Assembly (NCBI RefSeq): GCF_007752935.1
Contig: NZ_CP036319.1
Location: forward strand, 5,870,501-5,934,500
DNA length: 64,000 bases
Source: Crateriforma conspicua
Lineage (GTDB): Bacteria; Planctomycetota; Planctomycetia; Pirellulales; Pirellulaceae
Direction of reading: 5' to 3'
Positions 5,701 to 31,701 of the stretch are shown here, piece by piece. Position numbers and translations under genes: made by a program. The notes under the pieces were generated by a model. It was not told the origin of the DNA. It did no database searches and saw only the letters and a program-made list of their open reading frames with translations. The first letter of the stretch is position 1. Every line of letters starts with the position of its first letter.

Positions 5701-6150
5701 TCAGGCGGCGCGTGCGATGTCAAACTGGCCTTGGGCGCCCAGCGGCAACGCTTGCCGAATCGGCTGGTCATCGTTGGTGATCACTTGGCATCCCAGACGC
5801 TTGTCTAGGTTCAACAGCAACGGTGCGCGAAGATTCGTCGTCAATTTTCCGACATGACCGGACACCGTCGTCATCACGTACAGTTCGGCACCAGGCCGCA
5901 TGTGCAGCGACGCCATCTCACGCCTGGCAACGTGCACCCGATAGTCGGGAAAGAAAGCGCGTGGGCTGATCAATGGAATCGCCCGATCACCGCGGGAAGC
6001 GCTTTGCAGCCAAGCCACCGCGTCGTTCTGTTGGTCGGGAATCAGGGCCCACTGCCGCAGCGTTTCCAAACCGATCAATCCCTGTGGAAACAGAAACAGA
6101 TCTTCGGTGTTCAGAACAAGGTTACCGAATCGGTTGGTTTCAATACGCAT
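5701..6150 (-). CDS. fliW: Flagellar assembly factor FliW
   Basis: Small beta-barrel protein that binds flagellin and, when free, binds and inactivates CsrA, tying flagellin translation to filament export. The 149-residue product has the family hallmarks: [13 protein letters not shown] at the start, [17 protein letters not shown], the [17 protein letters not shown] block and the ending [15 protein letters not shown]. The length agrees with the family (about 130-155). It lies 170 bases downstream of flgL and upstream of csrA on the same strand, the classic flgL-fliW-csrA order. This strengthens all three calls. Confidence 0.93.
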
Positions 6151-6320
6151 GGCTGCGGATCATTTGAAGGCGTCAATCAGCAGATCGAACCGAGGGACAT
6201 CCGCGGTTCATAAGGTGTATCGGCCGGTTCATTCATCGAATCGACAAATTCGTTACAAACCGATGCGGAAAAAAGTGCGGCTTGACCGTGACCATTGCGT
6301 CAACGACCAGTCGACCATTG

Positions 6321-8276: not shown

Positions 8277-8471
8277 GGCGGACGGGATTCCTGCGTCGAA
8301 TGAACAGCGGACGTCGATCTTGTATCGTCAAGCCTTTCGCATTCGATTCAATCAAACCAATCATTTCGAACCACCATGGGACGTTTGCGTGGCCCGGGCC
8401 CCGGTTGTGGGGTTCTTCACCGGTGACGCGCCGCCCGTCTTGATTCCCCATCCTGCGAGGCCCCGCCGTCA

Positions 8472-9104
8472 ATGATCCTGATCGGCACCATGAACTTGAC
8501 CCGAACCCGCGACCGAGGCAGTTTTTATTGCCCCCAATGCGGGACGACGGAGTTTTACCGTCGCCGATCGCGCCGACCGTTCCTGACGCTTTATTTCATC
8601 CCCACCGTGCCGGTCGGGGCGGCCGAGGAATTCATCCAGTGCGACGGATGCGACGCCACCTGGGATCTGAGCGTTTTGGAGATGGACCGCGACAGCCACG
8701 AAGCGGCCAAGGAAGCCCAATTCAAAGACGAAGCCCTGCGGTCGGCTATTTTGACGGTGCTGATCGACCAACAGATCACACCGGGCGAAATCGACACCCT
8801 GATTTCGCTTTCCAACGATCTTTTACAACGTCCGATCGACCGCGAAGAACTGGGGCAACTGTGTTCCATCGCCGTCGACAACCGGATCAAGCCGGATCAC
8901 TACATCTTGACGGTCAGCCGACGCTGGACCCAACAGCAACGACGTTTGGCCCTGCAGATCGTCTTCTTGGCCGCCACGGCCGACGAACCGCTGGACGGCC
9001 CACGTCTGGAACTTCTGGGGCGGTTGCGAGAAATTTTCGACCTGACCGACGCCGAATACCAGGCGACCATCGAAGAGGCGATCGAACAAGCCGACGCCAC
9101 CTAG
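8472..9104 (+). CDS. Zinc-ribbon protein with TerB-like helical domain
   Basis: Predicted soluble protein of 210 residues. An N-terminal zinc ribbon has two cysteine pairs, C20-x2-C23 and C57-x2-C60, separated by a hydrophobic strand (RRPFLTLYFIPTVPVG). The rest (about 85-205) is all-helical: EALRSAILTVLIDQQITPGEIDTLISLSNDL, then RRLALQIVFLAATADEPLDGPRLELLGRLREIFDL. This resembles the TerB/tellurite-resistance helical bundle with an acidic first helix pair. Function unknown. ATG at 8472 is used; ATG at 8490 (MNLTRTRDRG) is an alternative. It is divergent from flgL and not obviously in an operon. Confidence 0.75.
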   Translation: MILIGTMNLTRTRDRGSFYCPQCGTTEFYRRRSRRPFLTLYFIPTVPVGAAEEFIQCDGCDATWDLSVLEMDRDSHEAAKEAQFKDEALRSAILTVLIDQQITPGEIDTLISLSNDLLQRPIDREELGQLCSIAVDNRIKPDHYILTVSRRWTQQQRRLALQIVFLAATADEPLDGPRLELLGRLREIFDLTDAEYQATIEEAIEQADAT

Positions 9105-9233
9105 AATCCACCCGCGACGGGGCCGCGATTCACCCCAGGTGGGACCAGCCGCCTTGGCGGTCGCCCCCAGAAGCCTAGAATTTCCGACTCCAAAACCAAA
9201 CCACGCGAGCGAACGGGTGACGTAATCGGTCCG

Positions 9234-10577
9234 ATGAAGACCGGCGTCCTGGTCGCCGATCCAGTTCACGCGAGCCGATTCGTCATGCCAGTTTCCTCTG
9301 ATCATCACAGCCTCGATATCAAACGCGTCGCCATCCTGTTCGCCGGCGGCCCCGCACCGGCAGCCAACGCGGTGATCAGCACGGCGGCATTCTCGTTTCT
9401 GGAAGAAGGCGCCCAGGTCTTCGGCATCAAGCACGGCTACAGTCGGCTGGCCGAATACAGCGCCGCCGGACCGCTGCAGGAAGGCACCGACTACATCCGA
9501 TTCAGCCACGACACGCTGACAAACGCCCGCAGCAGCCGCGGGATCATGATCGGAACGGCACGCACCAACCCCGGCCGCCACGTCAGCAGCCCCGAGAACC
9601 TGAAGGACCCGGAACTGGTCGCGCCCCTGCGGCGGGTTTATGAAGGTCTGTGCAGTCTGGAGATCGACGCCCTGATTAGCATCGGTGGCGATGACACGCT
9701 GAAGACCGCCAACAAGCTGAAGATGTTCCAGGACGGATTGCCGGCCGAAGCCAGGCGTTTCCCCGTCGTCCACTTGCCCAAGACGATCGACAATGATTAC
9801 AGCGGCATCGACTTCACCTTCGGCTTCTTCACCGCCGTCGAAACCTTGGCCGAAGAAATCCGCAACCTGAACTTTGACGCCGCCGCGGGCAGAGCCTATT
9901 TCCTGTGCGAAGCAATGGGACGCAGTGCCGGTTGGTTGGCCTATGGTGCGGCGATCGCCGGTGAAGCCAGCATGGTCCTCAGCGTCGAAGACATCCGCGG
10001 CGCCATGGCCGAGGAAGAAGTCGTCAGCCAAGAAACCGGAGAAACCCGCAAAATCATGGCCCTGGATCGGGTCATCGATCGCATGGTCGACATGATGCTG
10101 GCCCGCGAACGCGAAGGTCGCCAGTACGGAACGATCGTCGTCGCCGAAGGCATGGCGGAATACCTGCCGTCGAAGTACTTGGAAGGCATCAGCCGCGACG
10201 ATCACGGCCACATCAACATCTCCTCGGTCAATCTGGCCGCCATGATGTCCGGGTTATTGTCGGCTCGATACAACGAACGCACCGGCCGGACTCGCAAGGT
10301 GAACGGGCTGCAACTGGGTTACGAATCCCGTTGTGCACCGCCGCACGCCTACGACATCATGCTGGGGTCTCAGTTGGGTGTCGGTGCGTATCGTGCCTTG
10401 GTGGAAGAAAAGCTTAACGGTGTCATGGTGTCGGTCTCCGGACAACTGGACCTGCACTTTGTGCCGTTCCAAGAACTGGTGGACCCCGAAACGCTGGTCA
10501 CCAAGGTCCGCTTCATCCAGCCCGACAGCGATTTCCACCGACTGGCTCGGTTCCTGGAAACCTGCGTCGACAACTAA
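9234..10577 (+). CDS. pfp: Pyrophosphate-type 6-phosphofructokinase
   Basis: Phosphorylates fructose 6-phosphate in glycolysis. The 447-residue protein has the PFK fold blocks VAILFAGGPAPAANAVIS, IDALISIGGDDTLKTANKL, HLPKTIDNDY, AGRAYFLCEAMGRSAGWLA and GYESRCAPPHAYD. Residues G151-G152-D153-D154 carry Asp where ATP-dependent PFKs have Gly, and PKTIDND has Lys where those have Gly. In the family, both features go with pyrophosphate as donor, allowing the step to run reversibly. ATG at 9285 (MPVSSDHHSLD) may be the true start, because family similarity begins there. Planctomycetes commonly have this enzyme. Donor preference is inferred from residues only. Confidence 0.92.
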   Translation: MKTGVLVADPVHASRFVMPVSSDHHSLDIKRVAILFAGGPAPAANAVISTAAFSFLEEGAQVFGIKHGYSRLAEYSAAGPLQEGTDYIRFSHDTLTNARSSRGIMIGTARTNPGRHVSSPENLKDPELVAPLRRVYEGLCSLEIDALISIGGDDTLKTANKLKMFQDGLPAEARRFPVVHLPKTIDNDYSGIDFTFGFFTAVETLAEEIRNLNFDAAAGRAYFLCEAMGRSAGWLAYGAAIAGEASMVLSVEDIRGAMAEEEVVSQETGETRKIMALDRVIDRMVDMMLAREREGRQYGTIVVAEGMAEYLPSKYLEGISRDDHGHINISSVNLAAMMSGLLSARYNERTGRTRKVNGLQLGYESRCAPPHAYDIMLGSQLGVGAYRALVEEKLNGVMVSVSGQLDLHFVPFQELVDPETLVTKVRFIQPDSDFHRLARFLETCVDN

Positions 10578-10629
10578 ACGTGCCCAACATCGGCGACGCG
10601 AATCGCCGTTTCCCGGTGGCCCAAACCGT

Positions 10630-11865
10630 TCAGTCTTCCTCCGATTCAAATCGGTCGACGACGTGACGGGCGATCGCCAGCGATGCGGTTGCGGCGGGTG
10701 ACGGCGCGTTCAGCACGTGGACCGATCGAGGCCCACGTTGGATCAGAAAATCATCCACCAGATCCCCCTCCGGTGTAACCGCCTGTGCGCGGACACCGGA
10801 ACGTCCCGGCTTTAAATCGGTGGGACGAATTGATGGGATCAACTTCTGCAGCGCCCGAGTGAAGGCGTGTTTGCTGAACGAGCGATACATCTCGCCGGCC
10901 CCCATCCGCCAATGCTTTCCGGCCAGCTTTCGAAAACCAGCGAAGGAAAGCGTCTCCGCCAGGTCCGAAACACTGACGTCAGACCAGCGGTATCCGTGGC
11001 GTGCCATCGCCAGGACCGCATTGGGACCACATTCAACGCCTCCCTGTATCATCCGCGTGAAGTGGACGCCCAAAAAGGGAAAGCTGGGGTCGGGCACCGG
11101 ATAGATCAGATTTCGACACAACCGCTGGCTTTCCGATTTCAGTTCGAAATATTCCCCGCGAAACGGAACGATGCGAACATCGGTTTTTACCCCGGCGGCT
11201 CGTGCAATTCGATCACATTGCAGTCCGCCACAATTGACGTAGCGGTCGCAGCGGACCGGATCGTCGTGTCCGACGGCTTTCAAAACAACATCGTCCCCCG
11301 CCACATCGATCGCTTCGACACGAAAACCGGTGATCACCTGTCCGCCGGCCGCACGGATTCGCCGCACCATGGCGCGACAGACTTCTGGATAATCGACGAT
11401 CCCGGTTTCGGGCACATGCAGTGCGGCCAGCCCCGCCGCGGCCGGTTCCAATTGGCGTAGCCGGTCCGTATCGATCAGCTCGAACTCCACGCCGTTTTGG
11501 GTCGCCCGATCGGCGATCTGGTCCAGCCGCTGTCGTTCGTCCGCGTTGACGGCGACGACCACCTTGCCACAGCGATCCCAGCGAACGCTCTCATCTCGGC
11601 AAAACTGCTCCAGCAATTGCTTGCCTTCGCGACAGGTTTTGGCTTTGGTCGATCCGGGACGATAATACAGTCCTGAATGGATCACGCCGGAGTTGTTGCC
11701 ACTCTGATGTTGCCCGACGTCGGCCTCGGCTTCCAACACCGCCAGCCGGCACTCCGGATGACGCTGCAATACCGTCACGGCCGTCGCCAACCCTACGATC
11801 CCTCCGCCGATGACCACCACGTCGTAGCGGCCACCCGCATTCTGTGCCGGAAAGGGCGAATTCAT
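10630..11865 (-). CDS. lhgO: L-2-hydroxyglutarate oxidase (FAD-dependent)
   Basis: FAD enzyme of the DAO family that oxidises L-2-hydroxyglutarate to 2-oxoglutarate, repairing a by-product of central metabolism. The N-terminal Rossmann motif VVVIGGGIVGLATA is followed by the family block HQSGNNSGVIHSGLYYRPGS, then KTCREGKQLLEQFC, ETGIVDYPEVCRAM, the substrate region VPFRGEYFEL, and YPVPDPSFPFLGVHFTRMI. The C-terminal RSGVRAQAV and VLNAPSPAATASLAI are also typical. The start is taken as ATG 11865 (MNSPFPAQ) because the flavin motif begins about 14 residues later; an in-frame TTG at 11934 would overlap the neighbouring promoter region. 411 residues, normal length. Convergent with the PFK gene. 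Confidence 0.93.
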   Translation of the reverse strand: MNSPFPAQNAGGRYDVVVIGGGIVGLATAVTVLQRHPECRLAVLEAEADVGQHQSGNNSGVIHSGLYYRPGSTKAKTCREGKQLLEQFCRDESVRWDRCGKVVVAVNADERQRLDQIADRATQNGVEFELIDTDRLRQLEPAAAGLAALHVPETGIVDYPEVCRAMVRRIRAAGGQVITGFRVEAIDVAGDDVVLKAVGHDDPVRCDRYVNCGGLQCDRIARAAGVKTDVRIVPFRGEYFELKSESQRLCRNLIYPVPDPSFPFLGVHFTRMIQGGVECGPNAVLAMARHGYRWSDVSVSDLAETLSFAGFRKLAGKHWRMGAGEMYRSFSKHAFTRALQKLIPSIRPTDLKPGRSGVRAQAVTPEGDLVDDFLIQRGPRSVHVLNAPSPAATASLAIARHVVDRFESEED

Positions 11866-12008
11866 AAGGCAATCAGTGCGTTTTGAACCTAGCGTTGCAT
11901 TATGCAGGGCAAGAAAACCGAAGCGGAAACGCACCAGACTCGGTGCAACCCTCGCGCTTTGTCAAAGCCTATTGTGGACGTTACCAGACTAAATGGGGAG
12001 ATCCGCTG

Positions 12009-13283
12009 ATGGGGCAATCAGCGAATGTGACGATTTGGGTTGAGGACCTACAGTCCGGGGTGGTCTGTTCGCATCCGATCGTTGATCAATCGGGTGTGCT
12101 GTTGCTCGGTGCAAACACCGAGATCACCGAATCGGTCATCGCGGGGCTCGTGGACCGTGGGATCGAGCAGGTAGAGGTTCACCCCAAAGACGCGGCTCAA
12201 TTCCAAAAAGACGATTCCAAACGCAAGGAACCGTCCGCCAAACGCACGACGCACGCAGACACAGAACAGTCCGCACTCGATTCGGGGCGGCCGCTGCGAA
12301 ACTTCTTGGTGGATCGATTCGACGAACCTTTGGACGAAAAGCGATATGAATCGCTGAAGAAAGATTATGCGTCGGCCATCGAGCAGGTGGATGAGATTCG
12401 CGAAGCGGTTTCCAAACACCAATTGAAAACAATCGAGGCCATCGACGATCTTTCGCAACGGTTCACCAGCAATCTGATCGACGATCACGACCAAACCGTC
12501 AGCGTCTTCGGAAGCGCCCAAGAACAATGCGACTTGACCGAACGCAGTGTCAAATTGGCCAATCTGGGAATGGCGGTCGCCGTTGAAATGGGACTCGACG
12601 GCAAGGCGGTGTCCGAAATCGGGACGACCGGATTGCTGCATGACGTGGGCCTATTCATGATGGACGAAAAGTTTCGTCAAGTCGGCGTCGTGCTCAGCGA
12701 AGACGAACAGTGGACCTATCGCAAGCATCCGATCCTTTCGGAACAGTGCTTGAGCGAAGTCGGCGAAGTCGCCAGTCACATTCGTTTGGCCGTCGAACAA
12801 GTTCACGAGCAGTACAACGGCGTCGGATTTCCCCGTGGGTTATCGGGCAATCGGATTCACCCCTACGCGCGAATCTTGAACGTTGTCGATGCTTACCTGC
12901 AATTGATCCTGCCGACCGATCGTCGCCCTGGAATTTTGCCACACGACGCCATCGGCATCCTGTTGCATCAGGCTCGACATGGTCTGTTCGAACCAACCGT
13001 GATTCGCGCATTCCTGTTGACCCAAACACTGTTTCCACTGGGCAGCACCGTGGAACTAACCGATGGCACGATAGCAACCGTCATCCGCCGACCGCGTGAT
13101 GGTTACGCGATGCCCGTTCTGCAACGCGAAAGCGGCGAACGAATTGATCTGTCCCAGTCGACCATTCAAATCGCTCGGCCGATCCGCAGCGATGCGGTGG
13201 ACCAAGTGCGAATCAGCCAACAGGCGATGGAATCGATGACCTTGGAATCGGCGATGCAGGCCGCCATCAACATTAGCGGATGA
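12009..13283 (+). CDS. HD-GYP-like domain protein with altered motif
   Basis: Predicted 424-residue signalling protein. The N-terminal 60 residues form a small beta-rich module (DLQSGVVCSHPIVDQSGVLLL) as found at the front of many HD-GYP proteins. The HD domain shows the metal-site pair H211-D212 (GLLHDVGLFMMDE), a HP pair (YRKHPILSEQCL) and the GYP segment VHEQYNGVGFPRGL (His266-Glu267, GFP). Canonical proteins have HHE-x2-D/N-G-x-G-Y-P, so one His is replaced by Val and Tyr by Phe. It may hydrolyse cyclic di-GMP or only bind it. ATG 12009 is preferred because GGGGAG lies 8-9 bases upstream; a TTG at 11883 in frame would add an unlikely tail. It converges with and overlaps the next gene by 11 bases. 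Confidence 0.82.
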   Translation: MGQSANVTIWVEDLQSGVVCSHPIVDQSGVLLLGANTEITESVIAGLVDRGIEQVEVHPKDAAQFQKDDSKRKEPSAKRTTHADTEQSALDSGRPLRNFLVDRFDEPLDEKRYESLKKDYASAIEQVDEIREAVSKHQLKTIEAIDDLSQRFTSNLIDDHDQTVSVFGSAQEQCDLTERSVKLANLGMAVAVEMGLDGKAVSEIGTTGLLHDVGLFMMDEKFRQVGVVLSEDEQWTYRKHPILSEQCLSEVGEVASHIRLAVEQVHEQYNGVGFPRGLSGNRIHPYARILNVVDAYLQLILPTDRRPGILPHDAIGILLHQARHGLFEPTVIRAFLLTQTLFPLGSTVELTDGTIATVIRRPRDGYAMPVLQRESGERIDLSQSTIQIARPIRSDAVDQVRISQQAMESMTLESAMQAAINISG

Positions 13284-19053: not shown

Positions 19054-19136
19054 GGAGGGTAAGCGAATTGGTGAGCGGCCTCACTGGAACTGAGGTACCC
19101 CGTAAGGGGCTGCGGGTTCGAGTCCCGTGCCCTCCG
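19054..19136 (+). tRNA. tRNA-Ser (anticodon GGA)
   Basis: A class II cloverleaf can be folded by eye. The acceptor stem GGAGGGT pairs with GCCCTCC (19129-19135), with a discriminator G at 19136. The anticodon stem CCTCA/TGAGG encloses the loop CTGGAAC with anticodon GGA. There is a long variable arm (CCCC...GGGG) and a T arm GCGGG-TTCGAGT-CCCGT. The extra arm and the anticodon both indicate serine, reading UCC and UCU. The D stem is short, and position 8 appears to be A rather than the usual U. CCA is not encoded. It lies just downstream of rho with its own terminator. Confidence 0.88.
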
Positions 19137-19143
19137 CTGTTTT

Positions 19144-19166: not shown

Positions 19167-20233
19167 ACATATTCATCCCCCACCCCAACCGATCGAAGGG
19201 GACGGGGGCAATCGAGTTCGGCACCGATCTTTCTTCTGGTAGAAAATCCGAAGCTCGAAGATCTCTGGCCGTTCACCGCGATCCGGCTCTCGAGCGATGG
19301 AGCCTGATCGCAGACGCGAGCTTTCGCGCCCTGAATCGCCACTCTTTCGAATCAGGCGTTTCTTGCGCAGGTGACCAACAGGCCTTTCCAGTGGGCATCG
19401 AATCGAGCCGCTCGCCTAGCAGGCCTAACTTCGTTCTGCACCTGTCGCGTTTCACCGCGTCCCTGAAGGGTGTGGCACCGAATGGCCCCGAGCGTAATCG
19501 CGACAAGACCGGCGAGCATTAGTAGCCCTCGTATCGAAAAATTCGGGCTTGGCATCTTTTAGCACTGCTCCGGGAAATGGCATACGGCCGCTACTTCGCC
19601 TGCCTCATCTTATCGCCCCCGGCCAACACGGCCGAAGGCGATTGCCGTTGCCGGCCATCTGCGCAGCGGTGGTCGATATCGGCGATCGCCGGTGGTCAGA
19701 CCATTCCCCAACGCGAAACGAACACTCACTTTCCTCCCAGGATCTTCGTATCGGGTTAGATCAATCCCCAAATCAGCAAGAACCTAGGTCGTGAACATCG
19801 GCGTCGGGCTGCGCCCATCCGGCGCCGGCCACTAGGGTTGCTCGACCACGCAATCCTCGGATGTTTCTGGTTCGGTACTCAGTTCGACGAAAGCGGAGTA
19901 GGCGAGTCGCTTTGAACGTACCACCGAGGCGTGATGACCGGCGTAGAACAAAACCGAACCGAACCGGCATAGGCTGATTCAACCGACGCGTGTAGGGTGA
20001 ATCAGTGCTGCGACTACCAAGTGGCTGTTGTGCTCCTCGATAGTTTTAACGCGTCTTCACTGATTTGAACTCGCTGAGTAAGCGCTAAAGCGGCTGCGTT
20101 CGCAAGACACGGGGCTCCCAGTCACGGTTCTTGTTGCAGAACAGCTCTGATGGACAACTGACTTTGTTAGGCGAAATTGCTTCGCGATCCAAGGACTCTG
20201 AGATCTGGTGACATCGGATCCGCAAAAGCGTAT
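19167..20233. other. Gene-free stretch with dispersed repeat motifs
   Basis: About 1,070 bases with no frame that looks coding. It contains the motif AAGGGGACGGGGG (19196-19208) and a 30-base sequence at 19368-19397 that recurs, with one mismatch, at 24263-24292 and 26708-26737. Nothing else is recognisable. It may be decayed mobile or repeat DNA at the left edge of the accessory region. Confidence 0.5.
19368..19397. repeat. Dispersed 30-bp repeat, copy 1
   Basis: Matches 24263-24292 and 26708-26737 in 29 of 30 bases (A instead of G at the 13th base). The similarity extends a few bases to the left (TTCTTGC). The other two copies are within the tandem duplication, so there are two independent locations in the window. 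An AAGGGGACGG motif lies near each. Confidence 0.7.
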
Positions 20234-23200
20234 CTAGAAAAGGGTGTTAGACGTTGGCTGAACCCTCAGCGGGTCGTCATCTTCCACTAACAAGCTTCTG
20301 TCTACGAAGCTATCCGTGGCCTCGAATGTTGCATCTCGCCGTAGGCGATTGATCACCATCAGGGCGTCGTGCGCCGAGACGGTGCCATCGCCCGAGACGT
20401 CGTACAGGCCCTGCCAATCGCTCCAGCCAACAGCTTCATTGGCAAAATGCAGGCGATTGATGACCAGAAGTGCATCGAAGGCTGTGACCACGCCGTCAGC
20501 ATTGGTGTCGTACACATCAACGGGATTCTGGTATGGATTGTTCTGAATGTCGAAGTGCAGTCGGATGTGAGGATGTTCGGTCAGCCTGTAACGGATGTAG
20601 CGTCCACTGGAGAAGTATGACTCGTAAGTATCGGGCACGATGATGGTCGAGTGATCGATCCCATTGGTCGGCTCCGTGAAGCGGATATCGATGGGCCGCG
20701 TAAACCCTCCCGCAACAAATGGATCAAACGATTTGTCGACAATGACTCGGTCCGAACCTCGCGATAAGTCGAATCGAACCACCTGATTGCTCAAGTGCGA
20801 TTTTTCCGCGATCTGCAGGTTCCACAAACGACCACTGGCATTGATGGAGAATGTCGGGTCGTCACCGACGTTCTTTAGGCGGACCAAATCGCCCGAATCA
20901 CTGGTGATGACGCGACGCTCCCGCGGCCCCAGGTCATCGATCAAACTGACCGAATCATTGAGGCGAACGCAAATGTCCAGACCGTCGATCTGAATCATCA
21001 ATCCGTCGGGCCAGTCGCTGTAGGTGACGGAGTCGCCGGGGCCATTGATCAGTCGTATCCGTGTCTCGTAGCGAACGTTCAAATCAAGTCGGCGCGCCGG
21101 GCCGGCGGCCACCGAGGCGGTGTCGATCACGACTTCGCCAACAGCTCTTTCAAGGTTCAGGTGCACTTCCGTCGACACTGAGGCTGCAAAATCGATCTGA
21201 TCAACGCTGACAGACGTTTGATTAGTGTCTGCGGAAATGGTGACGGTAGATGCCGTGTCCACGACGTCGATCGTGTCCACAATCAGCGGATGGTTGACGT
21301 AATTGAGGACAAAATCGTCATCAAGGATCACGATGTTCCAGGCTCTAGTGTCGCTGATCAGAGTTGATCCCTCTGCAGTGCCATCGGTCACCCATGTTGC
21401 TTCACCGCTGGCCACCACCGAACCATTCGCGGTAAACCCATCCAAGGTTAGAGAACGACCACCCAAAGGGCTGATCGTCGGGACGAGGTGGGTCCCCGCG
21501 GCCGTACCATCAGAAACGTACAATCCGGCCATGACGCCGTCGGTGAGTTCCGAGACCCCAAAGAAGATCTTTGAATCCGAGATCACGATCTGGTCCAGCG
21601 GCGCGAGGATGATCCGTTCTGGCTGCGAACCATCGTCGTCGAGCCGCCAAAGTTCTCTGACGAAAGGAGAGTTCGGTGGAGAGATGCGAAAAATCCAGCT
21701 GTCACCAAGGCGGCCAATCGGCACGGGATCCCCATGTTGAGTGAGGGATTCGGGGATCTCGAAGAAGTCGTTTGAACCTTCGATTTGAAGAAACAGCCCG
21801 CTGTTGTCCGTTCGGATCGAGGCAAGATCCGAAACTGGCTTGATGCTGTTGCCGTAACTTTTCAAAATTTCTTCGGAAACGAGATCCTGCGGGACGACGA
21901 CTTTTTGCGTTCCGAATGCTGTGCCGTCGGTCGACCACAAAGCCCGCTCGATTCCTGGACTCGGCCTCCGACCTAAATCGAGATCCGTTCCCCAGCCCGA
22001 GTAGCTGCGGGCATAGTTCGATGCATATTGATAACGTACGTTGTAGGGGGCGACGCTATCAACACGAAAGAACAGCCGCTGCCCAGCGACTGCTTGCTTC
22101 AGCAGGTCCGTCCGGTAAACGACCGGAAACCCCGACGCGAGGGCTGCGATATTGGACACGTCGTCGTTGGTCCGCCAAATCGTTTGACCGCCGGCATCAT
22201 CATGCGTCGCGAAAATTACACGATCGTTGACCGAGCCGAGCACGTCAAACAGGTGACCAAAGCCGTCGCCCGGGCGATAGATTGCTCGCGGGACCGAACC
22301 AACTCCGACGGACCAAAGTGAACGGCCCAGCCGCTCGGTGGGCGTGACCGTGAAAACGGCCTTGTTGGCAACGACATAGAGTTCGTCGATCGTGGCCTGG
22401 GGGCTGATGTCGTCGGTTGCGAAGGCGATTCGAGTACCGAGTGCGGTTCCGTCCGAGATCCAGACCTTGCTGCCGAAAACGTCTTGCGTCGTGAACACAA
22501 AGTGTCGCCCATCCAGTCGGGTCAAATGATGCCTGTCCGCAGCCCGCGGAACAGCCGCCCGGGTCATTGGTGCATGGTTCGACGCGATGCGGCGGAGACT
22601 GTTCTCGGCCGTGGTGTCGGTTCGATGAATCACCAACCGATTCTGATTCATCTGGACCAGGATCAGTGTCTGATTGTTGTTAACGCTCACCAGCCGATGC
22701 GAATCTCCCGAGCCGTAACTAAAACTCGAGTGTCGGTTCCAACTCCCCTGGTCATCAATCCAATGGATCTGTAGCGATTGTCCAAAAAACTTGGAACTCG
22801 CGAAGTAGCTGAAAAACAACTGATCTTGGATCACGAACAATTCGCCCAATCGGTCCTCGGGCGATAGCGACGCAGAAATTTCCCAGGTAGCGGTGCGGGG
22901 GTCCAGCCGGATGATCTGGTCACAGTTATTGTGGCGGGTGGCATAGTATGCGTACTTGCCGGCAATCGTGATTTCCCCGCCGTGCGGCGCGCCCGCGAAC
23001 TCTCTCCATACGCCCGTTGACGTGTCGAAGACGGCCCAAGCGTCGCCACCCTTTCCTGACGTTCGCGTGAGCAAAAACTCGCCGACCGAAGACAATGATC
23101 TGTCGTTCACCCAGCGACCTTCGGGGAGCTCGGCGACCGTTTCCACCGCCGCCGTGCCCTGTGGCGAACCATCCGTTCGCCACAACACATTACCGATCGT

Positions 23201-24037
23201 ATTGGTGACAAGAAAAAAGAAGTCGTCACCAAACGGTTGCCCGACTGCTGGGCTCGCGACGTTGACGCCGAACAACTCCTCGACGCTCGCGACGGTCCCA
23301 TCAGGTTGGATGAAATGGATCTCGTTCCCATTAAACAGCTCCGAAAAGATAATATCTCCGGTGGCCAGATTATGGGCCGATTCAATGGACCGGATTTTGT
23401 CGACCGATTCACCGGATAGCTGGATCGTCCCGGCCGGAGTTCCATCAGAAACGAAATAGTTGCGAGACCCCTGCTCGAAATAGAACCGATGCTGGTCGGC
23501 GGTGAGCAGTTTTCCGACCCCATTTTCAAAACGGTCGGTCAACGTTGTTACCAGGGTCGTTCCCGATCGCGTTCCGTCGCTGATCCACAACTCGCCGCGG
23601 TACCAGTCAACGGGGACGTAAAAGACGACTCGGTCACCGAACACCTGCAATGGACCATCGATGTCGTGATCCGACACCCGCACCGTTCCTTCGGACGTGC
23701 CATCGGAACGCCAGAGATTACGGCCCGAATCAGGTAATTGTGCTGTGAAGAACACGCTGTCGCCCACCGATAGCAACGACTCGATCGCGGAGCCAATTTC
23801 GCCCGGTCGGATGTCTCGAACCAGTTCGGCCGGACCGTTGGCATCGGTGCTACGCCAAAGCTCCGCCCCAGAGGCAGGTTCGTTTCGCACGAACAGCGTG
23901 TTGTCTCCGACCCGCGCGAAGTCGGTATTGCTGTTCGGAAAAGGATCCGAAGACGAAGCAAATCCGCCGAATCCCGCCAACGGTCGACGTGACTCTAGCG
24001 TCTCCAGCTTGCACCGACGCCAATTTGTTTTTCGCAT
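20234..24037 (-). CDS. Large ELWRSDGT-repeat surface protein with dockerin
   Basis: 1,267 residues. The N-terminus carries the LEPR-XLL-type motif (KLETLESRRPLAG, about 11-23), a sorting-like signature of large planctomycete surface proteins. Many repeats of the ELWRSDGT kind follow: ELWRSTDA, NLWRSDGTSEGT, ELWISDGTRSGT, VWISDGTALGT, ALWSTDGTAFGT, LYVSDGTAAGT, TWVTDGTAEGS. These are consistent with beta-propeller or beta-solenoid blades. The C-terminus (about 1170-1235) is a type I dockerin with two calcium loops: DTNADGVVTAFDALLVINRL and DVSGDGTVSAHDALMVINRL. It is likely secreted and may bind a cohesin partner, which is not in the window. Its 5' half and upstream DNA are exactly repeated next door. 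ATG at 24037. Confidence 0.88.
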   Translation of the reverse strand: MRKTNWRRCKLETLESRRPLAGFGGFASSSDPFPNSNTDFARVGDNTLFVRNEPASGAELWRSTDANGPAELVRDIRPGEIGSAIESLLSVGDSVFFTAQLPDSGRNLWRSDGTSEGTVRVSDHDIDGPLQVFGDRVVFYVPVDWYRGELWISDGTRSGTTLVTTLTDRFENGVGKLLTADQHRFYFEQGSRNYFVSDGTPAGTIQLSGESVDKIRSIESAHNLATGDIIFSELFNGNEIHFIQPDGTVASVEELFGVNVASPAVGQPFGDDFFFLVTNTIGNVLWRTDGSPQGTAAVETVAELPEGRWVNDRSLSSVGEFLLTRTSGKGGDAWAVFDTSTGVWREFAGAPHGGEITIAGKYAYYATRHNNCDQIIRLDPRTATWEISASLSPEDRLGELFVIQDQLFFSYFASSKFFGQSLQIHWIDDQGSWNRHSSFSYGSGDSHRLVSVNNNQTLILVQMNQNRLVIHRTDTTAENSLRRIASNHAPMTRAAVPRAADRHHLTRLDGRHFVFTTQDVFGSKVWISDGTALGTRIAFATDDISPQATIDELYVVANKAVFTVTPTERLGRSLWSVGVGSVPRAIYRPGDGFGHLFDVLGSVNDRVIFATHDDAGGQTIWRTNDDVSNIAALASGFPVVYRTDLLKQAVAGQRLFFRVDSVAPYNVRYQYASNYARSYSGWGTDLDLGRRPSPGIERALWSTDGTAFGTQKVVVPQDLVSEEILKSYGNSIKPVSDLASIRTDNSGLFLQIEGSNDFFEIPESLTQHGDPVPIGRLGDSWIFRISPPNSPFVRELWRLDDDGSQPERIILAPLDQIVISDSKIFFGVSELTDGVMAGLYVSDGTAAGTHLVPTISPLGGRSLTLDGFTANGSVVASGEATWVTDGTAEGSTLISDTRAWNIVILDDDFVLNYVNHPLIVDTIDVVDTASTVTISADTNQTSVSVDQIDFAASVSTEVHLNLERAVGEVVIDTASVAAGPARRLDLNVRYETRIRLINGPGDSVTYSDWPDGLMIQIDGLDICVRLNDSVSLIDDLGPRERRVITSDSGDLVRLKNVGDDPTFSINASGRLWNLQIAEKSHLSNQVVRFDLSRGSDRVIVDKSFDPFVAGGFTRPIDIRFTEPTNGIDHSTIIVPDTYESYFSSGRYIRYRLTEHPHIRLHFDIQNNPYQNPVDVYDTNADGVVTAFDALLVINRLHFANEAVGWSDWQGLYDVSGDGTVSAHDALMVINRLRRDATFEATDSFVDRSLLVEDDDPLRVQPTSNTLF

Positions 24038-24262
24038 TGTCTGGAACTACACCAAAGTCCATTCGGACTGGAGAGAAAACAGATGGGATTCATAGTTGAG
24101 TGGCCTGTTACAGCATAATCTTAGGTTAACGGAAGCCGCCAAGGCTTTCGGTGATCCACGGCACCGGTCGAAACTCTTGGCGAGTTTCGCTACCGCCCAA
24201 ACCCCAATTTTTAGTCGTCCCAGACCACTAGCATCCCCACAAGTCGGAAAGCATTCTTGCCC

Positions 24263-24292
24263 CAGGTGACCAACGGGCCTTTCCAGTGGGCA
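24263..24292. repeat. Dispersed 30-bp repeat, copy 2
   Basis: Same 30-base sequence as at 19368-19397 with one mismatch, followed 10 bases later by AAGGGGACGGAGG (24302-24314). A third copy at 26708-26737 arises from the tandem duplication. Confidence 0.7.
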
Positions 24293-24462
24293 GAGACCCC
24301 AAAGGGGACGGAGGACTTTTCCCGGCCGTAGGTCCTCCATTTCCCAGTGCCGGCGGTTGCCCGGTGTGGTCTGGGCGGCGCCGTACTTGGCCAGCAGGGA
24401 CCGCCGCGTCTTTTCATGGCGACTGGTCAGTGGTTAGCCATCGACTCCAATCAATTGTTCGG

Positions 24463-24593
24463 TCATCCGAACGCCCCCGGAGGAACGAAGCGGCCCAGTC
24501 CGATCTTTTGCTTCAGGCTGTTGCGACCTTCGGCGGCTTTGACGCTGCGGAGATACTTATCCGCTTCGATCTGTTCACGCAGCGAGTGCTGCG
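24463..24593 (-). pseudogene. 3' remnant of the small gene at 26908-27130
   Basis: Encodes the last ~43 residues (SLREQIEADKYLRS ... GLGRFVPPGAFG) of the neighbour small protein, identical to the intact copy. It is cut at the duplication junction. Reading continues artificially from ELWRSDGT-gene sequence in another frame, so no sensible protein is made. Confidence 0.8.
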
Positions 24594-26482
24594 ATATTGG
24601 ACACGTCGTCGTTGGTCCGCCAAATCGTTTGACCGCCGGCATCATCATGCGTCGCGAAAATTACACGATCGTTGACCGAGCCGAGCACGTCAAACAGGTG
24701 ACCAAAGCCGTCGCCCGGGCGATAGATTGCTCGCGGGACCGAACCAACTCCGACGGACCAAAGTGAACGGCCCAGCCGCTCGGTGGGCGTGACCGTGAAA
24801 ACGGCCTTGTTGGCAACGACATAGAGTTCGTCGATCGTGGCCTGGGGGCTGATGTCGTCGGTTGCGAAGGCGATTCGAGTACCGAGTGCGGTTCCGTCCG
24901 AGATCCAGACCTTGCTGCCGAAAACGTCTTGCGTCGTGAACACAAAGTGTCGCCCATCCAGTCGGGTCAAATGATGCCTGTCCGCAGCCCGCGGAACAGC
25001 CGCCCGGGTCATTGGTGCATGGTTCGACGCGATGCGGCGGAGACTGTTCTCGGCCGTGGTGTCGGTTCGATGAATCACCAACCGATTCTGATTCATCTGG
25101 ACCAGGATCAGTGTCTGATTGTTGTTAACGCTCACCAGCCGATGCGAATCTCCCGAGCCGTAACTAAAACTCGAGTGTCGGTTCCAACTCCCCTGGTCAT
25201 CAATCCAATGGATCTGTAGCGATTGTCCAAAAAACTTGGAACTCGCGAAGTAGCTGAAAAACAACTGATCTTGGATCACGAACAATTCGCCCAATCGGTC
25301 CTCGGGCGATAGCGACGCAGAAATTTCCCAGGTAGCGGTGCGGGGGTCCAGCCGGATGATCTGGTCACAGTTATTGTGGCGGGTGGCATAGTATGCGTAC
25401 TTGCCGGCAATCGTGATTTCCCCGCCGTGCGGCGCGCCCGCGAACTCTCTCCATACGCCCGTTGACGTGTCGAAGACGGCCCAAGCGTCGCCACCCTTTC
25501 CTGACGTTCGCGTGAGCAAAAACTCGCCGACCGAAGACAATGATCTGTCGTTCACCCAGCGACCTTCGGGGAGCTCGGCGACCGTTTCCACCGCCGCCGT
25601 GCCCTGTGGCGAACCATCCGTTCGCCACAACACATTACCGATCGTATTGGTGACAAGAAAAAAGAAGTCGTCACCAAACGGTTGCCCGACTGCTGGGCTC
25701 GCGACGTTGACGCCGAACAACTCCTCGACGCTCGCGACGGTCCCATCAGGTTGGATGAAATGGATCTCGTTCCCATTAAACAGCTCCGAAAAGATAATAT
25801 CTCCGGTGGCCAGATTATGGGCCGATTCAATGGACCGGATTTTGTCGACCGATTCACCGGATAGCTGGATCGTCCCGGCCGGAGTTCCATCAGAAACGAA
25901 ATAGTTGCGAGACCCCTGCTCGAAATAGAACCGATGCTGGTCGGCGGTGAGCAGTTTTCCGACCCCATTTTCAAAACGGTCGGTCAACGTTGTTACCAGG
26001 GTCGTTCCCGATCGCGTTCCGTCGCTGATCCACAACTCGCCGCGGTACCAGTCAACGGGGACGTAAAAGACGACTCGGTCACCGAACACCTGCAATGGAC
26101 CATCGATGTCGTGATCCGACACCCGCACCGTTCCTTCGGACGTGCCATCGGAACGCCAGAGATTACGGCCCGAATCAGGTAATTGTGCTGTGAAGAACAC
26201 GCTGTCGCCCACCGATAGCAACGACTCGATCGCGGAGCCAATTTCGCCCGGTCGGATGTCTCGAACCAGTTCGGCCGGACCGTTGGCATCGGTGCTACGC
26301 CAAAGCTCCGCCCCAGAGGCAGGTTCGTTTCGCACGAACAGCGTGTTGTCTCCGACCCGCGCGAAGTCGGTATTGCTGTTCGGAAAAGGATCCGAAGACG
26401 AAGCAAATCCGCCGAATCCCGCCAACGGTCGACGTGACTCTAGCGTCTCCAGCTTGCACCGACGCCAATTTGTTTTTCGCAT
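24575..26482 (-). pseudogene. Truncated duplicate of the ELWRSDGT protein (N-terminal half)
   Basis: 635 codons, identical to the first ~629 residues of the protein at 20234-24037, including the LEPR-XLL motif and about half of the ELWRSDGT repeats. At the duplication junction it runs into foreign sequence and stops after a few residues (SNIAALAA). It lacks the dockerin and the C-terminal repeats. The upstream 550 bases are also identical, so it probably keeps a working promoter and could be expressed as a shortened, non-anchored protein. Whether this is a decaying remnant or a useful truncated form cannot be told. Confidence 0.9.
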
Positions 26483-27038
26483 TGTCTGGAACTACACCAA
26501 AGTCCATTCGGACTGGAGAGAAAACAGATGGGATTCATAGTTGAGTGGCCTGTTACAGCATAATCTTAGGTTAACGGAAGCCGCCAAGGCTTTCGGTGAT
26601 CCACGGCACCGGTCGAAACTCTTGGCGAGTTTCGCTACCGCCCAAACCCCAATTTTTAGTCGTCCCAGACCACTAGCATCCCCACAAGTCGGAAAGCATT
26701 CTTGCCCCAGGTGACCAACGGGCCTTTCCAGTGGGCAGAGACCCCAAAGGGGACGGAGGACTTTTCCCGGCCGTAGGTCCTCCATTTCCCAGTGCCGGCG
26801 GTTGCCCGGTGTGGTCTGGGCGGCGCCGTACTTGGCCAGCAGGGACCGCCGCGTCTTTTCATGGCGACTGGTCAGTGGTTAGCCATCGACTCCAATCAAT
26901 TGTTCGGTCATCCGAACGCCCCCGGAGGAACGAAGCGGCCCAGTCCGATCTTTTGCTTCAGGCTGTTGCGACCTTCGGCGGCTTTGACGCTGCGGAGATA
27001 CTTATCCGCTTCGATCTGTTCACGCAGCGAGTGCTGCG
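24594..27038. repeat. 2,445-bp tandem duplication, unit 2
   Basis: Second unit of the direct repeat described at 22149-24593. It carries the truncated ELWRSDGT copy, its upstream region and the 3' part of the small gene that continues past the unit into unique DNA at 27039. The intact small gene spanning the outer boundary and the intact ELWRSDGT gene spanning the inner one show the ancestral order before duplication. Confidence 0.95.
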
Positions 27039-27130
27039 CGGCGGAGTGACCGTCACCCGAGGCGCTCGCCGGTTCGGCCGCGTTGGATGCGGTTTTTGTC
27101 GGTGATCGTTTCGACGGATGGATCTGCCAT
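26908..27130 (-). CDS. Small protein, probably frameshifted (unknown function)
   Basis: From ATG 27130 the frame reads MADPSVETITDK and soon stops. A second frame, shifted by one base at the T5 run 27093-27097, reads TASNAAEPASASGDGHSAAQHSLREQIEADKYLRS and on to GLGRFVPPGAFG. Removing one base joins them into a natural-looking 73-residue protein. This suggests either a real one-base insertion (pseudogene) or a sequencing error in the homopolymer. The helical REQIEADKYL core and the final VPPG motif are distinctive, but I do not recognise the family with certainty. Similar small proteins occur near phage morphogenesis genes in related genomes, as I recall, but no phage gene is visible here. 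Confidence 0.5.
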
Positions 27131-27138
27131 GCCGTCAA

Positions 27139-27510
27139 CGATTGGCGGCAAGCGTCTCCCGTTCAACGGGCAAAACCGGGCTTCCACCCTGATTCGCTGA
27201 ACTCCATTACACCGGTGTAATTCCAGTCATTCTGGTTGCGGAAACACACATCAAAACATGCATGACCTTTGCTCGTTGGTGCCGGAGGAAGGCAAAGGGT
27301 CAACGCGTATCCATCGTTTTGCATTGCGTGGATTTGTCGTTCACCCGACTCGGGGAGAACGGTTAAAATACCGCTCACCGGAGGGGATTTCGGCTAGGGG
27401 CGAATCTGGAGAGCGGACGGGCATTCTTCCCAAACCACTGAAGAATTCAGAGTTATCCGAACACGTGAAGGCTTTCTCTTGGCGGCAACCTTATTTACTG
27501 GCGTCAATAC
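27139..27510. other. Non-coding stretch before the cassette-like genes
   Basis: About 370 bases with no convincing gene. It includes GTTATCC at 27453-27459, which has the form of an attC/attI right end and stands about 50 bases before the first plus-strand cassette-like gene. Opposing arms could not be matched convincingly, so no recombination site is called. Confidence 0.4.
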
Positions 27511-28095
27511 ATGAATGAACGATTCCAACCCGATCGTCGTTCGAATCGCGAGCGAATGCTCGCCGGTGACCAATACATTGCCGACGATCCGGAACTCGTT
27601 CGTGATGGTAACCACGCGGCGAAACTCATCGCTGCATTCAATGCAACCAACGGTGACGACAAACTAGTCCAGGACCGAATTTTGCGCGAACTGTTTGGAA
27701 GCGTCGGCGAGGGCACGGTCATTCGCCCACCGCTTCGGTGTGACTACGGGTATCAGACGCACATTGGCGCCCGTACCTTTGCTAATTGGGGTCTGATTTG
27801 CCTCGACGTCGGCAAGATTGAGATTGGTGATGACGTTCAAATCGGACCTAACGTCCAACTGCTAACGGCGACTCACCCAATTGAACCGTTGCCCCGCCAA
27901 GCGAAGTGGGAAGGCTCTCAGCCGATCATCATTGGCGATAACGTTTGGCTTGGGGGCGGAGTTATCGTCTGTCCTGGTGTAACGATCGGCAACAATACGG
28001 TGGTTGGCGCAGGTGCAGTGGTCACGCGGGATCTACCGGCAAACGTCGTTGCTGTTGGCAACCCTGCTCGAATCCTCCGTACGATTGAGGGCTAA
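27511..28095 (+). CDS. Maa/NodL-type sugar O-acetyltransferase
   Basis: Acetyl-CoA-dependent O-acetyltransferase of the left-handed beta-helix family, acting on free sugars or oligosaccharides in the cytosol. The 194-residue protein has the N-terminal helical maltose-acetyltransferase segment (ERMLAGDQYIADDPELVRDG) and then hexapeptide coils. These include RPPLRCDYGYQTHIGARTFANWG, IEIGDDVQIGPNVQLLTATHP with the catalytic His, IIIGDNVWLGGGVIVCPGVTIGNNTVVGAGAVVTRDLP and GNPARILR. Length is normal for Maa/LacA. First gene of the cassette-like series; acetyltransferases of several kinds are common in integron cassettes. The natural substrate is unknown. Start ATG 27511. Confidence 0.9.
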   Translation: MNERFQPDRRSNRERMLAGDQYIADDPELVRDGNHAAKLIAAFNATNGDDKLVQDRILRELFGSVGEGTVIRPPLRCDYGYQTHIGARTFANWGLICLDVGKIEIGDDVQIGPNVQLLTATHPIEPLPRQAKWEGSQPIIIGDNVWLGGGVIVCPGVTIGNNTVVGAGAVVTRDLPANVVAVGNPARILRTIEG

Positions 28096-28120
28096 CTGAG
28101 ATATCAGGGTAGACGCCGGA

Positions 28121-28206
28121 TTTCCAAGCCGTGCACTGGAGCGGCGGCAATGCGTTTTCCGATGGCTAGTTTCACTCTCGCCGGCCGGTGACGGCGAACG
28201 TTGTCG
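28121..28206 (+). other. attC-like recombination site 1
   Basis: Arms CCAAGCCGTGCACTGGAGC (from 28124) and GCCGGCCGGTGACGGC (from 28180) can pair with a bulged base near GGAG. The right end reads AACGTTGTC (28197-28205). It lies between the acetyltransferase gene and the next small gene. Confidence 0.6.
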
Positions 28207-28225
28207 GATAAGGGACAGTAGCGTC

Positions 28226-28498
28226 ATGAGTCACTACGCAAACGACACACAACGAAATGGCGAGTGCATTGAGCGGCTACGTGTGGCGATGAAGCAGACG
28301 CCCTATGTGTCCGTTCCAATCTTCGCAGTCGTCTTTGGATACGTCGGTTTGTACTTTGGTTTCATCAGCGCGATGGTGCTTGCGGTCGTTGGCGTCGTGG
28401 TGGGGCTTCGCTTCGCACTTGTGTTTCAGGCCATTCTGGAATGGATGGCGCTTATGCTCATCGCGACATCCAAGGGCGATGGCGAGCCAGCGGAATAG
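28226..28498 (+). CDS. Small membrane protein (cassette gene 2)
   Basis: 90 residues, not recognised. After a polar N-terminus (MSHYANDTQRNGECIERL) there are one or two closely spaced hydrophobic helices (YVSVPIFAVVFGYVGLYFGF, ISAMVLAVVGVVVGLRFALV) and a third weaker one, ending in an acidic tail. Flanked on both sides by attC-like sites. Composition is more AT-rich than the neighbouring housekeeping genes, as expected for a captured cassette. Function unknown. Confidence 0.6.
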   Translation: MSHYANDTQRNGECIERLRVAMKQTPYVSVPIFAVVFGYVGLYFGFISAMVLAVVGVVVGLRFALVFQAILEWMALMLIATSKGDGEPAE

Positions 28499-28517
28499 TC
28501 TTTACAGGGTCCGAAGC

Positions 28518-28609
28518 CCGATAACCAAGCGATTGACGCGGAGCCGCCGCTCGCGTCATGTTGAAGTCAGCGATCGACCACGGCGGCCCGGTCGTCGCCG
28601 CCGTTTTCC
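28518..28609 (+). other. attC-like recombination site 2
   Basis: The left arm from GATAACCAAGCG through GGAGCCGCCG (about 28520-28549) pairs with CGGCGGCCCGGTC...GCCGTT (about 28581-28605). The pairing is close to perfect over CGGCGGC/GCCGCCG, with one extra base in GGAG. It ends CGTTTTC. This is the clearest of the sites in sequence. Confidence 0.65.
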
Positions 28610-28630
28610 AACTGAGAACATGGATATCCC

Positions 28631-29005
28631 ATGACCAACGAGACCGACAAAACTCACGTCAGAGTGCTTTCAGTCTTGCACATTGTTGCTGGCCTGTTCT
28701 TTTTCGTCACCTCACTTGGGCAGTTTCTCCTAGCCAAAAATGCTGTGATAGTAGGACCACTGCCAACTTTCATTTCGTTTTTGTTCGCGTCAATGCTGAT
28801 AATGTCATTGCTGGTCTTCGTTGTGGGGATACTGCTGTATACACGTAGGATGTACTGGTTTTGCTTCACTGTTGCTGCTATCGAGTGTCTCATCGTGCCG
28901 CTTGGAACAATCATTGGCGTCTTGACGCTTGTCGTTCTCATGCGTCCATCGGTGACTGACGGTTTTGTGTCAAAGAACGCTGAGCCGACTGCTGGTGACG
29001 GATGA
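28631..29005 (+). CDS. Small polytopic membrane protein (cassette gene 3)
   Basis: 124 residues, not recognised. At least three membrane helices are evident: VLHIVAGLFFFVTSLGQFLL, LPTFISFLFASMLIMSLLVFVVGILLY and CFTVAAIECLIVPLGTIIGVLTLVVLM. A short charged N-terminus (MTNETDKTHVR) and a polar tail complete it. The stop lies inside the left end of attC-like site 3, a typical arrangement for compact cassettes. Start ATG 28631 is 22 bases after site 2. Function unknown. Confidence 0.65.
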   Translation: MTNETDKTHVRVLSVLHIVAGLFFFVTSLGQFLLAKNAVIVGPLPTFISFLFASMLIMSLLVFVVGILLYTRRMYWFCFTVAAIECLIVPLGTIIGVLTLVVLMRPSVTDGFVSKNAEPTAGDG

Positions 29006-30046: not shown

Positions 30047-30385
30047 CAAGGCTTGATCGACACGTCGCAGGACGCTTCTGGCTACCGGGAAACATTTAAG
30101 GGGACGGGGGTCTTTTCGGTCTACGTGCTGCATTGGTGCTGCAACGGGCGACAACTCTGAGTCGCTTTGGCTCTAGCCGAGGGCCGATCTGTTTCGACGA
30201 CGCCATCCAAAACTGGCGTCTTGCATTGCGGGTTGAAGCAGGCCGTGCAGATCGCCAACGATTGATCGGGTCGCTGCTTACCCAAAGCGACAGGCGTTGA
30301 CGCTGGCCCGTATTGGCAGCAGTCGCAGAACACGGCTTGCCGGATCCCCATGACCCAGGGGCGATGAAAACGGACGTTGTTGGAA
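30047..30385. other. Stretch with a Cys-rich gene fragment next to the IS
   Basis: Contains AAGGGGACGGGGG at 30098-30110, the motif also seen at 19196 and 24302. A minus-strand frame (30121-30351, open further toward the IS end) encodes CDCCQYG and CTACFNPQC pairs, like a piece of a zinc-binding protein. Its 5' end abuts the IS3 terminus at 30386, so it may be a gene cut by the insertion. No family is assigned. Confidence 0.4.
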
Positions 30386-30408
30386 TGCCCCCATTTCCTG
30401 ATCCACGG

Positions 30409-31278
30409 TTATGAGAGTACGGGTTGGTTAAACGATTCCACAGTGGGCTGCTTCCGCGAAGGGAGCGCAGCGAACGAAGCGGAAGTAGCCCACTGTGAAG
30501 CAAAATCCGCTGGGGCCATTCCACCGATGCCGCTGTGCGGACGTCGATGGTTGTACGTTTGACGCCATGACTCAATGATCGACTGTGCCTCGGACAAGCT
30601 GCTGAACAGCTCGCACGATAAACACTCATCGCGAAGCCTGCTGTGGAAGCTTTCGACGTAGCCGTTCTGCCAGGGACTGCCCGGTTCGATGTAGGAAGTC
30701 CCCACCTCAATGAAGTCCAGAAAGGAGCGGACCGCCTTGCTGATGAACTCCGGGCCATTGTCGCTGCGGATGAACGACGGGATGCCGCGGCTGACGAATA
30801 AGTCGCTCAACAGCGCCACCAAATCGTCGCCGGTGAACTTTCGACCCACTTCCAGTGCAATGCACTCACGAGTGAACTCGTCGATCAGAGAGAGGATCTT
30901 CAACGAGCGACCGTCTTCGGTTCGATCAAAGATGAAGTCGACCGACCAAACGTGATTGGGGTACTCGGCCGATCGACGAATGACGCCGCCTTCGGAGTTG
31001 CCCAATCGTCGCTTTTTCGCCTTTTTGACCGGCACCTTGAGACCTTGTTGTTTCCAGAGTCGGTGGATCCGTTTGAAGTTTACACACCAGCCTTCCTGCC
31101 GCAAAAGACGAGTGATGCGTCGATAGCCATAGCGAGGAAACTCGCCGACGAGTTCCAGTATTCGAGCAATCAGACGTGGTTCGTCTTCTTTGGTGTTTGG
31201 CCGGTATCGTTGGCTACTGCGCGATTGGCCGAGCGTCCTGCAAGCCCGACGCTCCGAGACGCCGAAGCAACTCTGCAA
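30409..31278 (-). CDS. IS3-family transposase OrfB (DDE catalytic part)
   Basis: Integrase-like catalytic domain of the OrfAB transposase. The three acidic residues are in HVWSVDFIFDR, FIRSDNGPEF and SPWQNGYVESFHSRLRDE. The family HTH_21-like segment RYGYRRITRLLRQEGW precedes them. The frame is open upstream of 31278 to the orfA overlap (KLLSPTRRREAACKLQS...), so OrfB is probably made mainly as an OrfAB fusion by -1 frameshifting at 31317-31323. The frame looks intact, so the element may be active. Confidence 0.92.
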   Translation of the reverse strand: MQSCFGVSERRACRTLGQSRSSQRYRPNTKEDEPRLIARILELVGEFPRYGYRRITRLLRQEGWCVNFKRIHRLWKQQGLKVPVKKAKKRRLGNSEGGVIRRSAEYPNHVWSVDFIFDRTEDGRSLKILSLIDEFTRECIALEVGRKFTGDDLVALLSDLFVSRGIPSFIRSDNGPEFISKAVRSFLDFIEVGTSYIEPGSPWQNGYVESFHSRLRDECLSCELFSSLSEAQSIIESWRQTYNHRRPHSGIGGMAPADFASQWATSASFAALPSRKQPTVESFNQPVLS

Positions 31279-31310
31279 CTTGCAGGCTGCTTCACGGCGA
31301 CGCGTCGGGC

Positions 31311-31595
31311 TTAGAAGTTTCCCTCGGCGATCACCTTGAGCATTCGCTTATCGAGTTCTGCTTCGGCCAGCAGTTCTTTGAGCTTCTGGTTCTCGATTTC
31401 GAGTTCGCGAAGCCGTCGAGCCTCATCGGACTTCATGCCGCCGTACTGCTTCTTCCATCGCATCCAGGTCGATTCAACAATCCCAAGCTTCTGGTACACC
31501 TCCGCCAGGCTCTTGCCGGCGGCCAACATGGCTTCACCCTCGGCGATCGCCTTGACGATCTGTTCGGGCTTACGTCGCTTTCGTGCTTGTTTCAT
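31311..31595 (-). CDS. IS3-family transposase OrfA (HTH)
   Basis: 94-residue DNA-binding part of the IS3 transposase: KQARKRRKPEQIVKAIAEGE, a helix-turn-helix (LAEVYQKLGIVESTWMRWKKQY) and a leucine-zipper-like helix (LRELEIENQKLKELLAEAELDKRML). ATG 31595 is chosen because AAGGAGA stands 9 bases upstream; the in-frame ATG at 31637 lies in the terminal repeat. The gene ends three bases after the slippery heptamer GGGAAAC, as expected for a frameshift arrangement. Confidence 0.92.
   Translation of the reverse strand: MKQARKRRKPEQIVKAIAEGEAMLAAGKSLAEVYQKLGIVESTWMRWKKQYGGMKSDEARRLRELEIENQKLKELLAEAELDKRMLKVIAEGNF
31317..31323 (-). promoter_or_regulatory. Programmed -1 frameshift site GGGAAAC of the IS
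   Basis: The heptamer lies in the correct phase for orfA (G GGA AAC), a canonical X XXY YYZ slippery site, two codons before the orfA stop TAA. A -1 shift enters the orfB frame, which is open from here. This allows an OrfAB fusion transposase. Confidence 0.75.
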
Positions 31596-31701
31596 CTCGA
31601 GAGTCTCCTTGGCCGTTATTGGCCGGTACACTCTCATAACTCATGGACCAGTTTTTGGGGAGCACGCCATTGTCGCTACGTTCGGTCAATTAACCGGTGC
31701 G

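Follow-up and report, generated by a model that had tools for sequence, protein, structure and literature searches.

Tandem duplication between short homologous sequences is a long-known type of mutation in bacteria, and the work of Edlund and Normark (1981, Nature 292:269) is, by its title, reportedly a related older study. In the closest described system, the amplification of lac in Escherichia coli, one study gives microhomology in 40 of 40 sequenced junctions; REP sequences account for 16 of these, and template switching is the mechanism that the authors put forward (PMC3161906). The locus described here lies in a 64,000-nucleotide stretch of the Crateriforma conspicua genome (the window) and contains a 2,445-bp tandem duplication. 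As in lac amplification, the copy is head-to-tail, the novel join falls at a short homology, and the join is free of any element. In contrast to lac amplification, the duplication was found in a sequenced genome with no known selection, its unit is small (2.4 kb), and one gene is truncated where whole genes are amplified in E. coli. The affected gene encodes a protein with ELWxxDGT repeats. Its full-length copy resembles the ELWxxDGT proteins (TIGR04534) with a type I dockerin in exceeding both family cut-offs, whereas the truncated copy consists of repeats without a dockerin and no cohesin partner was found in the genome.

The C. conspicua genome (G000) was compared with a sister genome (G001), the sole other genome of the genus in the comparison. 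The elements of the duplication are as follows.

22149 to 24593, unstranded: copy A (left) of the duplication, with the left outer boundary that looks ancestral (direct comparison with copy B)
24594 to 27038, unstranded: copy B (right) of the duplication, with the right outer boundary that looks ancestral (direct comparison with copy A; continuity in the sister genome)
24588 to 24593, unstranded: new junction, with 6 nt of exact homology, GCTGCG, within the 12-nt site 24582-24593 (limits of the exact run)
22137 to 22148, unstranded: left breakpoint site GCGAGGGCTGCG (sequence comparison)
27027 to 27038, unstranded: right breakpoint site GCGAGTGCTGCG (same bases at this place in the sister genome)

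The initial annotation had claimed an exact duplication at these coordinates, with breakpoint sites at 22137 and at 24582 and 27027 alike in 11 of 12 bases, and both statements are borne out. The two copies are head-to-tail with sharp limits, and scattered substitutions between them, which would speak against a recent event, were looked for and numbered 0 among 2,445 positions. The maximal exact run, 22143-24593 against 24588-27038, spans 2,451 nt at an offset of 2,445; beyond it, identity at the same offset is 20-33 per 100 in the 100-nt bins lying wholly outside. The excess at the breakpoint is GCTGCG (6 nt), so the join can be placed anywhere within 24588-24593, and the preceding bases, GCGAGG versus GCGAGT, lengthen the similarity to 11 of 12. 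The join reads GCGAGTGCTGCG and then the left unit, with a single recombinant copy of the site at the junction.

The breakpoint 12-mer, with at most one mismatch, occurs at 22137, 24582 and 27027 only when both strands of the window are searched. Among 200,000 random pairs of window positions, pairs less than 100 nt apart being skipped, the chance of 11/12 agreement at the break was 1e-5 and that of 6 or more identical bases running through it was 2.2e-3. Full-length matches to the unit in the genome, a single contig of 7,182,433 bases, were restricted to these two sites among the 40 of 67 first-look candidates that were scored, and four shorter matches were listed elsewhere. The 2,445-bp repeat was not listed by Tandem Repeats Finder, whose longest period is 500, and a scan of the window against Rfam gave no match.

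Two open reading frames (ORFs) of the ELWxxDGT type are affected by the duplication.

20234 to 24037, minus strand: full-length ELWxxDGT-repeat protein gene, 1267 amino acids (aa), dockerin at residues 1176-1232 (TIGR04534, PF00404)
24575 to 26482, minus strand: truncated copy, 635 aa (634 shared plus 1), without dockerin (TIGR04534; ORF comparison)

Both were assigned to NCBIfam TIGR04534, the full-length protein with 131.8 bits and the truncated one with 116.2 bits (cut-off 65). The dockerin of the full-length protein reaches 47.5 bits against the Pfam model PF00404 (cut-off 22.9), and the 635-aa copy matches no Pfam family at 0.01. Residues 1-634 of the shorter ORF are those of the 1267-aa ORF, followed by one alanine and a stop, and 556 bp of upstream DNA are kept. 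A truncated copy lacking the dockerin beside an intact gene, as previously described, is seen in the 634 shared residues and in the presence of PF00404 in the full-length copy only.

The right breakpoint lies in phage-related DNA, part of which was carried into copy A.

26775 to 27460, minus strand: prophage remnant, comprising the opening codons of a portal gene and a small frame that appears phage-derived (89% to G000:7118103-7118796)
24330 to 24593, minus strand: duplicated part of the prophage remnant within copy A (91% to the same prophage over 264 nt)

The prophage at the 7118103-7118796 locus encodes an intact portal protein of 492 aa (phrog_21, 3.4e-54) together with head (phrog_4523, 3.7e-62) and minor tail (PF10145, 1.9e-52) proteins. 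The portal frame of the remnant meets a stop after codon 10, and the similarity to the prophage ends at 26775. The small frame at 26911-27162 (minus strand) has 84 open codons, among them one TTG but neither ATG nor GTG, and gave no PHROG match; its counterpart in the sister genome shares 94% identity and stays open for 197 codons. It appears to be phage-derived because of its place beside the portal gene. The unit had been said to take in the end of a small gene on this side. It does reach into an open frame, but that frame is an 84-codon stretch in prophage debris without ATG or GTG. A dispersed repeat ending at the duplication boundary was also considered and rejected, since the prophage similarity runs past 27038 to 27460; the match had stopped early because the query crossed the new junction. 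Comparison of the ELWxxDGT gene with the phage-bearing loci by tblastx gave no match.

The left outer edge (22143) lies inside the unbroken 1267-aa ORF, which has full-length homologues. Across the right outer edge the sister genome is uninterrupted (window 26738-28898, 97.6% over 2,161 aligned bases), and it carries the breakpoint 12-mer at the same place. The position of the left edge inside a full-length ORF and the contiguity of the right edge in the sister genome thus identify 24588-24593 as the new join, and both outer boundaries look ancestral. Compared with the sister genome, the flanks have 51/2,161 (2.4%) and 270/5,369 (5.0%) mismatches, and the duplicated part common to both genomes has 20/301. 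Between the copies, 0/2,445 differences correspond to an upper 95% bound of about 0.12%. Set against the 2.4-5.0% from the sister genome, this indicates that the duplication is recent or has been homogenised; it would be much younger than the split from the sister genome unless homogenisation has occurred. The earlier proposals of ancestral outer boundaries with a new inner join, and of a recent event, agree with these comparisons, homogenisation being the alternative to the latter.

A control sample was drawn from 122 stretches of the same genome, mostly 20 kb long and mostly evenly spaced, together with the window (2,496,433 bases in total, 34.8% of the genome, 2,500 N), and each stretch contributed its four longest exact repeats (60 nt or more). 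Among the repeats so listed, no exact tandem pair but that of the window has a unit of more than 400 nt outside one array (L207, G000:7020001-7040000, at about 5050-13000). This array consists of near-identical 1,896-nt repeats with an exact repeat of 1,895 nt; the open frame around it extends beyond the stretch and counts at least 5,399 codons. A 372-nt pair cut off by the edge of a control stretch and short-period arrays are also present. Imperfect or dispersed direct repeats occur among the control listings as well (for example L095, L149 and L184). No sign of a general assembly fault was seen in this sample.

The tandem duplication would have arisen between the two 12-bp sites alike in 11 bases, 6 of them consecutive at the join, with one site in the central part of the ELWxxDGT gene, the other in the neighbouring prophage remnant. 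Template switching at replication is a likely route, as is slippage or an exchange of sister copies through short homology at that stage. A recent short-homology tandem duplication between these sites, with the truncated ORF as its by-product, is likely, and we infer that the event took place in the cell and not in the assembly. Several observations weigh on the other side. The duplication is known here from assembled sequence. The sister genome is without the ELWxxDGT gene, so that the left edge has no counterpart there at this site, and no unduplicated state of the gene was seen at the locus. In the control sample, a 331-nt exact tandem pair (L136) is without exact junction homology, and a review covers 13 amplifications with either microhomology or none at their junctions (PMC11721125). 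These junctions without homology imply that homology is not required at a junction.

An assembly artefact, with a chimeric molecule or a wrong join doubling the unit in silico, is rather unlikely. Exact identity is the outcome expected of it, and template-switch chimeras also carry short homology. A 12-bp imperfect overlap, however, is too short for an assembler join, and an arbitrary wrong join would rarely meet an 11/12 match (1e-5). Moreover, the genome is one contig that elsewhere contains the 1,895-nt exact repeat of L207, and the repeats listed from the 34.8% sample include no other exact tandem unit of more than 400 nt outside that array.

Very unlikely is an older duplication kept identical by gene conversion, with the truncated gene retained for use. 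Conversion is common between close repeats, and the truncated ORF keeps 5 ELWxxDGT stretches at the TIGR04534 search threshold, the same number as the full gene. Yet the identity reaches the last base at both edges with no worn margin, and the cut interrupts a stretch that two homologues conserve on either side of it.

The two homologues come from a search of 241 genomes of the family, own genome counted, with at most two candidates scored per genome listed; besides the own genome, matches at 1e-30 were found in two (G179 and G219). They are 1280 and 1283 aa long, 33-34% identical over nearly the full length, belong to two other genera, and by eye have an LE[PS]R-type N-terminus and a dockerin-like C-terminus. 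Weak repeat-driven matches are frequent: at 0.001 they appeared in 17 of 20 genomes, with the own genome counted. A search of genome contigs with the 1267-aa protein, from which the own genome was possibly left out, confirmed no relative. Identity to the two homologues is 18/50 and 21/50 in the bin that holds the cut (601-650), and 13/42 and 14/41 in the bin after it. With conserved sequence on both sides, the truncation point does not resemble a domain border; a structure prediction of residues 1-950 made without an alignment, with a predicted local distance difference test (pLDDT) score of 33.3, was uninformative on a domain at the cut. The 635-aa ORF is probably a by-product of the duplication. 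No literature on ELWxxDGT or ELWRSDGT was found among open-licence papers.

RecA recombination between exact repeats of 2.4 kb is expected to remove or amplify the unit, making the pair unstable. It is most improbable that such recombination forms a reversible switch, toggling between the full-length gene alone and the full-length gene with a dockerin-less form and giving population-level variation of the repeat protein.

Anchoring through the dockerin finds no support in the sequence searches. The Pfam cohesin model PF00963 matched in neither of the two genomes (G000 and G001) at 0.001, although a strongly diverged cohesin would escape this model, and the control search was positive in 1 of 14 named genomes. 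One family of freshwater planctomycetes is reported to have cohesin and dockerin modules (PMC6461901). The idea that an unanchored form of a surface protein could be released presupposes anchoring by the dockerin, and it fared poorly: both genomes are without a detected cohesin, and the cut is inside a conserved stretch. The suggestion that the truncated copy bears a promoter gained no support either. In the region 23900-27300, a scan for a sigma-70-like consensus returned one site, on the opposite strand, no more than in shuffles. Terminator-like sites in the same region number 8 versus 3.6 in shuffles, all within the two ORFs.

Around the duplication, the following features mark a block of DNA that is missing from the sister genome.

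19054 to 19137, plus strand: tRNA-Ser(gga), left of the accessory block (ARAGORN)
19368 to 19397, unstranded: 30-nt direct repeat marking the left limit of the block that the sister genome lacks (repeat search and sister-genome alignment)
24263 to 24292, unstranded: copy of the 30-nt direct repeat inside copy A, 97% (repeat search)
26708 to 26737, unstranded: copy of the 30-nt direct repeat at the right edge of the absent block, 97% (repeat search and sister-genome alignment)

In the sister genome, the rho and tRNA-Ser side (to window position 19382) is joined directly to 26738. The absent block, 19383-26737, comprises the entire ELWxxDGT gene with the duplication, and its complete absence marks it as accessory DNA beside the tRNA-Ser gene. 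The rho assignment is by NF006886 (465 bits, cut-off 315); by TIGR00767 the score is 445.6 bits, under the cut-off of 509.45. A clean excision across the 30-nt repeats was rejected as the source of the sister state, the join there keeping only the first 15 nt of the repeat. An imprecise deletion in the sister genome fits better, as does an insertion in the C. conspicua lineage with a small further deletion in the sister. Within the block, about 200 nt (19632-19830) have copies of 79-82% at G000:7136488, G000:7100858 and G001:C8:261028.

Further to the right, repeats of about 80 nt stand between small genes from 27511 onward, at 28124-28202 and near 28520, 28997 and 29639. The repeat at 28124 matches the genome at 18 more sites, of which 16 lie at 230-312 kb, beside an integron integrase (G000:226492-227439, TIGR02249, 417.7 bits, one internal TAA). 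The 27.5-30 kb stretch may consist of a few integron cassettes that lie apart from the main array. A transposase element at about 30381-31669, which we take to be of the IS3 type, has two frames (30409-31278 and 31311-31637), and its site is empty in the sister genome with a 4-nt flank overlap. The window has a second direct-repeat pair, an imperfect one (46575-47291 and 48591-49316), with a spacing of 2,016-2,025; samples of 300 nt show 85-91% identity, and its exact runs reach 144 nt. It is hardly credible that a mobile element (transposon, prophage or integron) made the duplication in place of short homology. A phage remnant does lie at the right end, with the IS3-type element 3.3 kb rightward and integron-type repeats nearby, but no breakpoint is at an element end: the phage similarity continues through 27038 to 27460, the transposase element lies at about 30381-31669, and the 30-nt repeats are away from the breakpoints.

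The short-homology tandem duplication is an ordinary and recent type of mutation, and the locus is a further example of it, with a breakpoint in prophage debris as the added detail. It provides a clean natural case of a fresh duplication in accessory DNA near a tRNA gene and a prophage remnant. The case documents the turnover of such loci and leaves the general view unchanged. For the annotation of this family, the 635-aa ORF is best recorded as a truncated duplicate rather than a member in its own right.

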